A stretch of 64,000 bases of DNA from Mangrovimonas xylaniphaga (GTDB lineage Bacteria > Bacteroidota > Bacteroidia > Flavobacteriales > Flavobacteriaceae), in contig NZ_LBIP01000013.1 in NCBI RefSeq assembly GCF_001280435.1, positions 1,674,001 through 1,738,000 of the forward strand, read 5' to 3'. Positions 4,279 to 7,610 of the stretch are shown here, piece by piece. The position numbers and the translations under genes were made by a program. Every line of letters begins with the position of its first letter. Position 1 is the first letter of the stretch. The notes beneath the pieces were generated by a model, which saw only the letters and a program-made list of their open reading frames with translations, ran no database searches and was not told the DNA's origin.

Positions 4279-4887
4279 ATGGCTTTCGAATTACCGAAAT
4301 TAAAATATGCATACGATGCTTTGGAACCACACATCGATGCGCGTACTATGGAAATACATCATACAAAACATCATAACGGCTATACCACCAACTTGAATAA
4401 CGCTATTGCAGGAACTGATTTGGAAGGAAAAACGGTAGAAAATATTCTTACCAATTTAGATATGGACAATACCGCTGTAAGAAACAATGGTGGAGGATTT
4501 TACAACCACAATTTATTTTGGGAGGTTATGAATCCTGAAGGAAAAGGAGTTTTGTCTGGAGAATTAAAAGACGCTATCGAAGCTGCATTTGGTTCGGAAG
4601 AAGCCTTCAAGGATGCGTTCAGTAAAGCTGCAGCAACTAGATTTGGATCTGGATGGGCATGGTTATGTGTTCACAAAGGAGGAAAAGTAGAAGTTTGTTC
4701 TACTCCTAACCAAGACAACCCATTAATGCCAGGAATTGGTTGCGAAGGAACTCCTATTTTAGGATTGGATGTTTGGGAGCACGCTTACTATTTACACTAC
4801 CAAAACAGAAGACCAGATTATATCAACGCATTTTTCAACCTTATCAACTGGAATGAAGTTGAGCGTAGATATGCTGAAGCAAAATAA
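4279..4887 (+). CDS. sodA: Superoxide dismutase, Mn/Fe family
   Basis: It converts superoxide to oxygen and peroxide in the cytoplasm. The 202-residue length is normal. Expected metal ligands are visible: His27, His77 (in FYNHNLFW), Asp164 and His168 (in LDVWEHAYY). Gln145 in [10 protein letters not shown], together with glycines before the second histidine, is the arrangement typical of Mn-type rather than Fe-type enzymes; real metal use may be either or both. The gene stands alone with its own promoter-like element upstream and a strong terminator just downstream. It starts at the first ATG, product [20 protein letters not shown], which aligns with E. coli SodB from residue 1. Confidence 0.96.
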
Positions 4888-4969: not shown

Positions 4970-5040
4970 AAAAAAGGTGAACTAATGTTCACCTTTTTTG
5001 CCCCAAATCTACCATAAACTTAACCTACTTATGTTATGGT
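4970..5040 (-). ncRNA. Putative small RNA, copy 1 of 3
   Basis: A 71-bp unit that recurs nearly unchanged at 5233 and 5484. Read on the minus strand it starts ACCATAACATAAGTAGG, can pair ACCATAA with TTATGGT about 15 bases later, continues AGATTTGGGGC, and ends in a terminator hairpin GGTGAAC-ATTA-GTTCACC followed by six T. A promoter-like TATATTCG lies five bases before the first base, with TTTG 21 bases further upstream. The conserved body sits on the 5' side of the hairpin only when read on this strand, which is the main reason for the strand call. No open reading frame of note. I do not recognise the family; Flavo-1 RNA or another Rfam family is possible. The hairpin is bidirectional and could also back up termination from the superoxide dismutase gene. 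Confidence 0.65.
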
Positions 5041-5114
5041 GACAACGAATATAGAAGCACTTTTTAAATTATTTCAAAAATTTAGATGAACAACGTTTAA
5101 ATTAGTTGAAAAGT
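5041..5114 (-). promoter_or_regulatory. Promoter and conserved upstream block of putative small RNA copy 1
   Basis: On the minus strand: TATATTCG (plus 5046-5053; one mismatch to TAnnTTTG), TTTG (plus 5075-5078) with 21-base spacing, and just upstream TTCATCTAA (plus 5082-5090), then CTAATTTAAA and ACTTTT. The 74-base stretch aligns gap-free with the 74 bases upstream of copy 3, with the conserved bases clustered in these boxes. Confidence 0.55.
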
Positions 5115-5232
5115 ATTTTTTGTAAAATAAATATCTGATTTTTAAATATTTGCACTAAAAACGAAGTGAATTTTGAGAAGAGTGCAATTTCCTATTTAAT
5201 GAAAATTTTGAGGAGTAAAGAAATATCAAAAT

Positions 5233-5303
5233 AAAAAAGGTGAACTGACGTCCACCTTTTTTGCCCCAAATCTACCATAAACTTAACCTACTTATGTTAT
5301 GGT
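5233..5303 (-). ncRNA. Putative small RNA, copy 2 of 3
   Basis: The 41-base body is identical to copy 1; the hairpin differs only in its loop and one stem base. On the minus strand the stem is GGTGGAC/GTTCACC, where the changed base gives a G-U pair; on the plus strand the same change gives an A-C mismatch, which favours the minus strand as the RNA. Six T follow. It lies 192 bases from copy 1, and the spacer is not a repeat of the body. Confidence 0.65.
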
Positions 5304-5387
5304 ATTGACAAATATATAAGGTCTTAATTTTAACATTTAAATTTTTTAGATTAAAGACCCATAAATCGGTTTAAGCGGTAAAAAGTG
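5304..5387 (-). promoter_or_regulatory. Promoter and upstream block of putative small RNA copy 2
   Basis: On the minus strand an exact TAnnTTTG (TATATTTG, plus 5309-5316) lies five bases before the RNA start. No clean TTTG is seen at the -33 position. A TTAATCTAA box (plus 5346-5354) sits 43 bases upstream, matching the TTCATCTAA box of the other two copies at 42 bases. Farther upstream the similarity weakens, with ACTTTTTA retained. Confidence 0.5.
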
Positions 5388-5483
5388 ATTTTATTTTGAT
5401 ATGTTATGGACTCGCTGAAAGTTATTTGTTCGATGAAATGCAGTCTGAAATAGAGGTGATTAGGTGTAGAATTGAATGGAAAT

Positions 5484-5556
5484 AAAAAAAGGTGAACTGT
5501 TGTTCACCTTTTTTTGCCCCAAATCTACCATGAACTTAACCTACTTATGTTATGGT
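5484..5556 (-). ncRNA. Putative small RNA, copy 3 of 3
   Basis: A 73-bp unit with the same body as copies 1 and 2 except one base, hairpin GGTGAAC-AACA-GTTCACC with seven-base A and T flanks. The single body change gives an A-C mismatch inside the ACCATAA/TTATGGT pairing on the minus strand (G-U on the plus strand), so that first stem is less certain than the terminator. It lies 112 bases downstream of purF on the same strand. Confidence 0.65.
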
Positions 5557-5630
5557 GATGCTAAAGTATACGTAATTTGCTTAACTTTTGATAATTATTA
5601 GATGAAATGCATTTAAATTAGATAAAAAGT
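5557..5630 (-). promoter_or_regulatory. Promoter and conserved upstream block of putative small RNA copy 3
   Basis: On the minus strand TACTTTAG (plus 5561-5568) is a one-mismatch -7 box. TTCATCTAA (plus 5598-5606) lies exactly 42 bases from the RNA start, as in copy 1, preceded by CTAATTTAAA and ACTTTT at the same offsets. A good -33 TTTG is not apparent. Confidence 0.5.
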
Positions 5631-5668
5631 CGTTTTATCGGATAAAGTGCTCTAAAATATCAAAGCTG

Positions 5669-7567
5669 TTAATAAGCTCTTTCTTTGTTTCCTTCAAAGA
5701 AATTGATGAACGCTCTGTTAACCACGCGGTTACCTCCAGCCGTTGGATAGTCTCCTGTGAAATACCAATCTCCTAAGTTCTTCGGACACGCAGTATGCAA
5801 ATTATCCACTGTTTGGAAGATGGCTTTAACCTCGGCATTAATGCTGTCATCACAGATCAATTCAGAAATTTTATCAGATATTTCATCATCTGTAAATTGA
5901 TCGTAAAGCTCTTTTACAAAGTTTTGAACATCCTTGTCTTCCAAGTCTACCTGCTCTTTACATTTGTGGTAAACTTCCTCAACCATATGGTATTTGTCAT
6001 TTTCTTTCAACAATTCCAACATGGCTCTAAAAGCAATTAGGTCTTCAAGTCTTGCCATGTCAATACCATAACAATCTGGATATCTAATTTGTGGAGCCGA
6101 GGATACAACAACAATTTTCTTAGGATGTAAACGGTCCATCATTTTAATGATGCTCTTTTTAAGAGTTGTACCGCGTACAATACTGTCGTCGATAATTACC
6201 AAATTGTCCTGTGGCTTAATAACCCCATAAGTGGCATCATAAACGTGTGCAACCAAATCGTCTCTACTGCTGTCTTCGGTAATGAAGGTTCTTAATTTAA
6301 CGTCCTTGATGGCAATTTTTTCAATTCTTGGTCTTTCTGATAAAATTTCAGTTACATGTTCTGCTGAAAGTTTACCTCCTCCATCAAGAATTGCTTTTGT
6401 TTTCTTTTCGTTAAGGTGTTTTTCAATAGACTCAATCATTCCGAAAAATGATGTTTCCGCAGTATTTGGAATAAAGGAGAATACCGTATTTTTAGTATCG
6501 TTTTCTATTGTTTCAAGTACTTTAGGCATTAAAAGTTTACCAAGGGTTTTGCGCTCTTGGTATATTTCGGCATCACTTCCTCTTGAAAAATAGATGCGCT
6601 CAAAAGAACACGCCTTACGCTCTAAAGGCTCAAGAATCTTTTTGATGGCAACTTCTCCAGATTTTTTGGTGATGATGGCATGACCAGGATCCAATTCAAT
6701 TACCTTATCAAAATCTACATTGAATACGGTTTGGATTACTGGACGTTCCGAAGCTACTACCACAACTTCATCATCCTTGTAGTAATAAGCTGGTCTAATA
6801 CCTGCTGGATCACGTAAAACGAAGGAATCTCCGTGACCTAACAAACCGGCCATAGCGTAACCTCCATCCCAATTCTTGGCGGCTCTTTTTAATATTTTGG
6901 CTACGTTTAAACGTTCTGCAATAATTGGAGAACATTCTCTTTTGCTGTAACCTTCTGCTTTAAGTTGTTTGTATTTTTTAGAAACGGCATCATCCAAAAA
7001 GTGACCAATCTTTTCCATGATGGTAATGGTGTCTGCCTTTTCTTTTGGATGCTGACCCAAACGTACCAATCCATCAAATAATTGATTTACATTGGTCATG
7101 TTGAAGTTACCTGCAACAATAAGGTTTCTGTGCATCCAGTTGTTTTGTCTTAAAAATGGGTGAACGCTTTCTACACTGTTCTTTCCAAAAGTCCCATAGC
7201 GAACATGTCCTAAAAGCAGTTCTCCTACATAAGGAATATGACGCTTTTGAAGCTCTACATCGTCGGCATATTCTGGATTCTCGCTCAATTCCTTGTTGAT
7301 TCTGGAATTGATTTGAGCAAAAATATCCTGTATTGGCTGTTGGGCAATAGACCGCACACGACTTATATAGCGCTCTCCAGGATCTGTATCTAATTTAATA
7401 CTGGCAAAACCTGCACCGTCCTGACCACGGTTGTGCTGTTTTTCCATCATCAAATACATTTTGTTAACGCCATAAAAAGCACTTCCATACTTTTCTTTAT
7501 AGAATTCCAATGGTTTTAAAAGTCTAATAAGTGCGATTCCGCATTCATGTTTTAAAGCATCACTCAT
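5669..7567 (-). CDS. purF: Amidophosphoribosyltransferase (glutamine PRPP amidotransferase), long Bacteroidota form
   Basis: It catalyses the first committed step of purine synthesis, moving the glutamine amide onto PRPP. The N-terminal Ntn-type glutaminase starts at Cys9 in MSDALKHECGIALIRL, so eight residues would be removed to free the catalytic cysteine. The PRPP loop reads VIIDDSIVRGTTL, about two thirds along. At 632 residues it is longer than the classic 470-510, with an extra C-terminal part, which is usual for this phylum. The frame continues to a TTG at 7582; I chose the ATG at 7565-7567 because it gives the short propeptide. A terminator separates it from the pfkB-like gene upstream, so it should have its own promoter. 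The three putative small RNAs follow it. Confidence 0.9.
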   Translation of the reverse strand: MSDALKHECGIALIRLLKPLEFYKEKYGSAFYGVNKMYLMMEKQHNRGQDGAGFASIKLDTDPGERYISRVRSIAQQPIQDIFAQINSRINKELSENPEYADDVELQKRHIPYVGELLLGHVRYGTFGKNSVESVHPFLRQNNWMHRNLIVAGNFNMTNVNQLFDGLVRLGQHPKEKADTITIMEKIGHFLDDAVSKKYKQLKAEGYSKRECSPIIAERLNVAKILKRAAKNWDGGYAMAGLLGHGDSFVLRDPAGIRPAYYYKDDEVVVVASERPVIQTVFNVDFDKVIELDPGHAIITKKSGEVAIKKILEPLERKACSFERIYFSRGSDAEIYQERKTLGKLLMPKVLETIENDTKNTVFSFIPNTAETSFFGMIESIEKHLNEKKTKAILDGGGKLSAEHVTEILSERPRIEKIAIKDVKLRTFITEDSSRDDLVAHVYDATYGVIKPQDNLVIIDDSIVRGTTLKKSIIKMMDRLHPKKIVVVSSAPQIRYPDCYGIDMARLEDLIAFRAMLELLKENDKYHMVEEVYHKCKEQVDLEDKDVQNFVKELYDQFTDDEISDKISELICDDSINAEVKAIFQTVDNLHTACPKNLGDWYFTGDYPTAGGNRVVNRAFINFFEGNKERAY

Positions 7568-7610
7568 AATGTCTGTTGTCAAGGTTTCTGCCGTAGCAGG
7601 ATAATTGTTT

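Follow-up and report, generated by a model that had tools for sequence, protein, structure and literature searches.

A tandem array of putative small RNA genes conserved between purF and sodA in Flavobacteriaceae, with a small-protein mRNA as its predicted target

The 64-kb stretch of Mangrovimonas xylaniphaga DNA analyzed here (the window) carries, between the convergent genes sodA and purF, three minus-strand tandem copies of a short unit, present where the initial annotation had placed them (Table 1). The units share the 41-nt body ACCATAACATAAGTAGGTTAAGTTYATGGTAGATTTGGGGC, which varies at a single base (T, T, and C in order of coordinates), and are spaced by 263 and 253 nt; matches between the copies within this genome (E = 7e-27 and 3e-26) are far beyond chance. 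In all three units a terminator hairpin, perfect or nearly so, and a T-run follow the body, with the layout A-tract/GGTG(A/G)AC...GTTCACC/T-run, and a -7 box precedes it at about 5 nt, both as the initial annotation had described.

Table 1 Features of the purF-sodA locus (positions in the window).
Feature	Position	Strand	Details
sodA, convergent neighbor	4279..4887	+	conserved synteny
sRNA unit 1	4970..5045	-	body 5000-5040, terminator 4970-4999; covariance model R1, 91.6 bits
-7 box of unit 1, TATATTCG	5046..5053	-	sequence; TAnnTTWG conservation over 150 non-redundant units
20-bp-pitch direct repeat upstream of unit 1, probable activator site	5080..5115	-	motif score 16.8
sRNA unit 2	5233..5308	-	body 5263-5303, terminator 5233-5262; R1, 90.5 bits
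-7 box of unit 2, TATATTTG, exact TAnnTTTG	5309..5316	-	sequence; TAnnTTWG conservation
20-bp-pitch direct repeat upstream of unit 2	5344..5379	-	motif score 20.5, best of the window
sRNA unit 3	5484..5561	-	body 5516-5556, terminator 5484-5515; R1, 95.2 bits
-7 box of unit 3, TACTTTAG	5561..5568	-	sequence; TAnnTTWG conservation
Three-fold direct repeat upstream of unit 3 (two overlapping 36-nt matches)	5596..5651	-	motif scores 18.5, 16.2
purF, same-strand upstream neighbor	5669..7582	-	conserved synteny

The predicted RNA of ~75 nt consists of a 5' hairpin, the single-stranded stretch AGAUUUGGGG, which includes GAUUUGGGG, and an intrinsic terminator. Whole units fold with a z of about -5 relative to shuffles, a value owed mostly to the terminator; on its own, the body hairpin is weak (z about -1). 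We also considered whether the unit encodes a peptide. In unit 1, ATGGTAGATTTGGGGCAAAAAAGGTGA would provide 8 codons followed by a stop; this candidate was rejected because neither unit 3 nor the GGTAAGATTTGGGG clade retains the frame. The initial annotation would have yielded to a protein-coding repeat or to a purely terminator repeat; the body has no conserved reading frame, and the units comprise more than a terminator.

The spacers had been described as not being copies of the body. That part stands, but they are not unrelated to each other, each containing a direct repeat with a 20-bp pitch upstream of the -7 box. Alignment of 150 non-redundant upstream regions revealed two conserved blocks, TAnnTTWG at -7 and this repeat (two copies of approximately GCnTTTnAnCnAA), which sits immediately upstream of the -33 region. 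Within the window, the sRNA upstream regions supply the four best matches to the motif, the window units being 3 of the ~150 sequences used for its training. The conserved -7 box and direct repeat argue that the units are transcribed separately and that the regulator is a dimer. Each copy would thus be transcribed from its own sigma-A-type promoter (TAnnTTTG -7 box), and a dimeric regulator bound to the direct repeat would probably activate these promoters. With at least two near-identical copies, each having its own promoter and terminator, the array has the makeup of a sibling sRNA family; the proposal of a family expressed as separate transcripts is further supported comparatively, promoter, body, and terminator being conserved as a unit over ~200 genera.

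The search of Rfam proposed in the initial annotation was run over the whole window with all 4227 families; it gave no match at gathering thresholds, and in E-value mode only subthreshold chance matches. When 60 relatives were searched at the DNA level, most genomes belonging to the same family proved to carry the unit, mostly in tandem, and the matches listed from a scan of named genomes include Mangrovimonas, Zobellia, Maribacter, Winogradskyella, Aquimarina, Formosa, Flavobacterium, and many others. The covariance-model search that had also been suggested was performed with a model (R1) built from 60 diverse units. At E ≤ 1e-3, R1 matches 164 of the 199 Flavobacteriaceae genomes (198 genera), or 143 of 165 when good-quality genomes are considered, as well as 69 of the 81 genomes of one further large genus of the family, probably Flavobacterium. 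Among 149 genomes of the class, those outside the family gave only chance-level, terminator-like matches, the best at 38.8 bits vs ~90. The location is equally stable: in nearly all of the 106 loci with enough flanking sequence, the sRNA follows the 3' end of purF, on the strand of that gene, and faces sodA, in 1-6 copies. Extra full-length copies away from this array were seen at G026:C2:1751403, G008:C32:74982, G016:C1:980913, and G007:C13:463967.

Nearly all of the 25 invariant columns in the 60-unit alignment fall within the body, and the terminator stem covaries, with two-sided changes at 11 of 13 pairs, which argues that the body is constrained in sequence and the terminator in structure; the 5' hairpin is too conserved to allow a covariation test. 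Merely repeated terminators, or some other non-functional repeat between convergent purF and sodA, would suit the location, and the hairpin at the end of the unit also reads as an inverted repeat. We nevertheless hold this to be very improbable, given that every unit has its own conserved promoter elements, that the body is conserved across so many genera, that arrays of a single copy are preserved too, and that an antisense partner is located in trans.

Weak sRNA matches elsewhere led to this partner, an intergenic region that adjoins scoB and neighbors an ABC-transporter ATPase gene. On the strand of scoB, this region holds up to three reverse-complement copies of the sRNA body, in an array within which a small ORF starts. 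In the window organism the ORF lies at G000:C5:1339308-1339433, about 335 kb from the sRNA array (G000:C5:1678970-1679561). The antisense sites, of ~35 nt each, occupy the leader and the first codons and cover the start codon. When the sRNA body was paired with the leader from -100 to +48, RNAduplex, which disregards competing intramolecular structure, gave energies of -34.1 to -52.4 kcal/mol in 35 distinct genomes; in each of these, none of 150-200 dinucleotide shuffles (means near -20) did as well as the observed duplex, and the best duplex among 34 control gene starts from the window reached -29.0. The three sites of the window organism score -25.8, -40.2, and -42.1, site 2 extending up to the start codon and site 3 lying just inside the ORF. 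The unpaired segment had been suggested as the target-binding element. Its AGATTTGGGGC does take part in the antisense match to the predicted target, but so do the loop of the hairpin, AUAAGUAGGUUAA, and the greater part of the body.

Of 34 ORFs, 32 use CTA for the Leu codon within the site, vs 47 of the 188 other Leu codons of the same ORFs (p = 1e-14), a preference that points to constraint on the sRNA site at the RNA level. In the Zobellia/Maribacter clade the pairing is weaker and shifted towards the start codon (AAACCTA...CTATGG vs CCATAGCATAAGTAGGTT), and 17 of 28 leaders of this type rank in the best 2.5%, beating all but at most 5 of 200 shuffles. Most of the other CCCCAAATCTA sites in the genome of the window organism are inside genes or far from starts and were discarded as candidates. 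One was retained: CCCCAAATCTATTTT, complementary to the single-stranded segment of the sRNA, precedes by 19 nt the start of a gene for a ~217-aa lipoprotein in three Mangrovimonas genomes (G000:C5:1792474, L057; G002:C1:522354, L279; G001:C34:14983, L276). This site lacks the sRNA promoter motif, and the lipoprotein mRNA is a candidate second target.

The small ORF, which stands for an unannotated protein family, has 40-42 codons, is usually found beside scoB, and follows the consensus MNxAxNLPxPTxxESK..LxFLKSxxxLTKKxFML; the protein of the window organism is MENVAPNLPRPTYFENRILTVIQNTLSLLKNIFALIKKLFML. Over the last 30 codons, with the pairing site left out, pN/pS is 0.29 and third positions account for 51% of the differences, so that by its substitution pattern the ORF is a gene under protein-level selection. 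A domain search against Pfam and NCBIfam gave no family match. Because its C-terminal half resembles an amphipathic, lysine-rich helix, a membrane-associated role is possible. In the Zobellia/Maribacter clade a second form, MEAQxNxxxEEIQVYKNDFFSGIxMLTKKLFML, replaces the first, mostly at the corresponding place. Paralogous pairs with a TKK(I/L)FM-type tail were seen in one genome each (G132:C1:2304656 and 2305525; G099:C10:100871 and C15:131940), near each other in one case. At another locus (L083, G007:C12:30903) the ORF is frameshifted after codon 25 with its antisense sites intact; it may be a pseudogene, or have an RNA-level (sponge) role in that genome.

With both profiles (E ≤ 1e-3), the small ORF was detected in 111 of the 164 sRNA-bearing genomes and in 0 of the 35 sRNA-less ones (Fisher p = 4e-15, a value that overstates independence, since the genomes are related and many of the sRNA-less ones are small or incomplete). 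In the remaining 53 of the 164, the sRNA would have other targets, or the ORF has diverged beyond the profiles. The two genes also appear to share their upstream signals. On the same strand, the position weight matrix of the sRNA promoters gave a mean of 13.9 on the promoters of first-form small ORFs vs 4.15 ± 0.42 on shuffles, at least as high as the mean of the sRNA promoters themselves (10.3). Sequence inspection in the window organism shows that the sRNA and the small-ORF gene space the repeat and the -7 box differently, by about one helical turn. This sRNA-type motif is mostly missing before the second form. In the Zobellia/Maribacter-type clade (L252-L264), the small ORF is instead preceded by a different direct repeat, TTCACAACA-n12-TTCACAACA, with a pitch of 21 bp and a LytTR-like geometry.

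From these comparisons we consider it probable that the three units are near-identical tandem genes for a single trans-acting antisense sRNA of ~75 nt, which limits the small protein through an incoherent feed-forward loop. The loop is proposed because the direct-repeat motif precedes both the sRNA genes and the small ORF: an activator would switch on both, and the sRNA, by pairing with the leader and first codons of the small-protein mRNA, would occlude the start codon and stop translation, thereby limiting or delaying the protein. Against this explanation count the sRNA-bearing genomes in which the small ORF was not detected, the weaker pairing and mostly missing promoter motif in the Zobellia/Maribacter-type clade, the frameshifted ORF of G007, and a sRNA body more conserved than a single diverging target explains. 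Its near-invariance, together with its presence in the 53 genomes in which the small ORF was not detected, suggests that there are more targets.

Two other readings predict the same complementarity as the feed-forward loop, which therefore does not separate the three. In the first, the small-ORF leader is a sponge whose tandem antisense sites titrate the sRNA, keeping it from main targets that lie elsewhere, and the small protein has a secondary part. The presence of up to three tandem sites in one leader, a near-universal sRNA better conserved than the small ORF, and the promoter motif common to both would fit such a role. We find it unlikely, because the sites overlap the start codon of an ORF under protein-level selection, the clades with a re-coded N-terminus retain pairing near the start codon and not the tandem sites, and no other conserved target set was found in these comparisons. 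The second is a type I toxin-antitoxin-like pair, with the small protein as membrane-active toxin and the multicopy sRNA as trans antitoxin. It would account for the amphipathic, lysine-rich C-terminal half, the long antisense complementarity over the start codon, and the restriction of the small ORF to sRNA-bearing genomes, and we rate it somewhat lower still: the sRNA is hundreds of kb from the small ORF and not at the same or an adjacent locus, both loci have fixed chromosomal neighbors in most genomes and no signs of mobility, the sRNA persists in many genomes in which the ORF was not detected, and the small protein has neither a strongly hydrophobic transmembrane stretch nor a toxin match in Pfam or NCBIfam.

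Returning to the feed-forward loop, we see about even chances that it forms a core circuit across Flavobacteriaceae, in which tandem sRNA genes and an mRNA with tandem sites respond to one activator, near-full-length pairing in trans sets the level of a ~40-aa protein, and the pairing is kept while the N-terminus is re-coded around the sRNA site. If so, the sRNA would rank among the best-conserved regulatory RNAs of this large family of aquatic and fish-associated bacteria (~82% of sampled genera, a fixed locus, and an almost invariant 41-nt body), one for which Rfam holds no model, and the circuit would exemplify long trans-antisense pairing with matched multiplicity of sRNA genes and sites. 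The concrete predicted target, the candidate regulator site, and the simplicity of the circuit make it testable in cultivable strains.

Sibling sRNAs such as NgncR_162/163, OmrA/B, LhrC, and Qrr act through short seeds on many mRNAs. The present array resembles them in its several near-identical, partly tandem copies with separate promoters and terminators, and differs in that the sRNA is complementary over nearly its whole body to its best predicted target, with several sites per leader. With the type I antitoxin RNAs of IstR/TisB and Sib/Ibs it shares long complementarity around the start of an mRNA for a small protein, whereas the present pair sits at distant loci, with conserved synteny of both and a shared promoter motif. 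In the literature searched we found no earlier description of the purF-sodA array, and the sRNA/small-protein circuit appears to be undescribed; the nearest entries, compared by description only, are unnamed sRNA candidates of F. columnare without an Rfam match (PMC5395568) and the Rfp RNAs of Flavobacterium psychrophilum (PMC9723704). The latter RNA-seq study catalogs 85 new RNAs, among them Rfp18, for which it describes wide conservation within the genus, three or more stem-loops, and metalloproteases as predicted targets (PMC9723704). Rfp18 is likewise an sRNA of Flavobacteriaceae; judged by that description, the present RNA differs in having two hairpins and another predicted target. It is possible that the array sRNA is an RNA already seen in those data, such as Rfp18, from which it is set apart by description only. 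Among Bacteroidota, FopS of Bacteroides (Rfam RF04319) comprises paralogous sRNAs in dispersed copies that target susC-type PUL mRNAs (PMC11697453). The present RNA is likewise multicopy and of ~65-75 nt, with putative sigma-A promoters, terminators, and predicted pairing near a start codon. They are not homologous (the array scores 24.0 and 17.6 bits vs a FopS gathering score of 56), and the present sRNA forms a fixed tandem array whose best predicted target is a small-protein mRNA with tandem sites.
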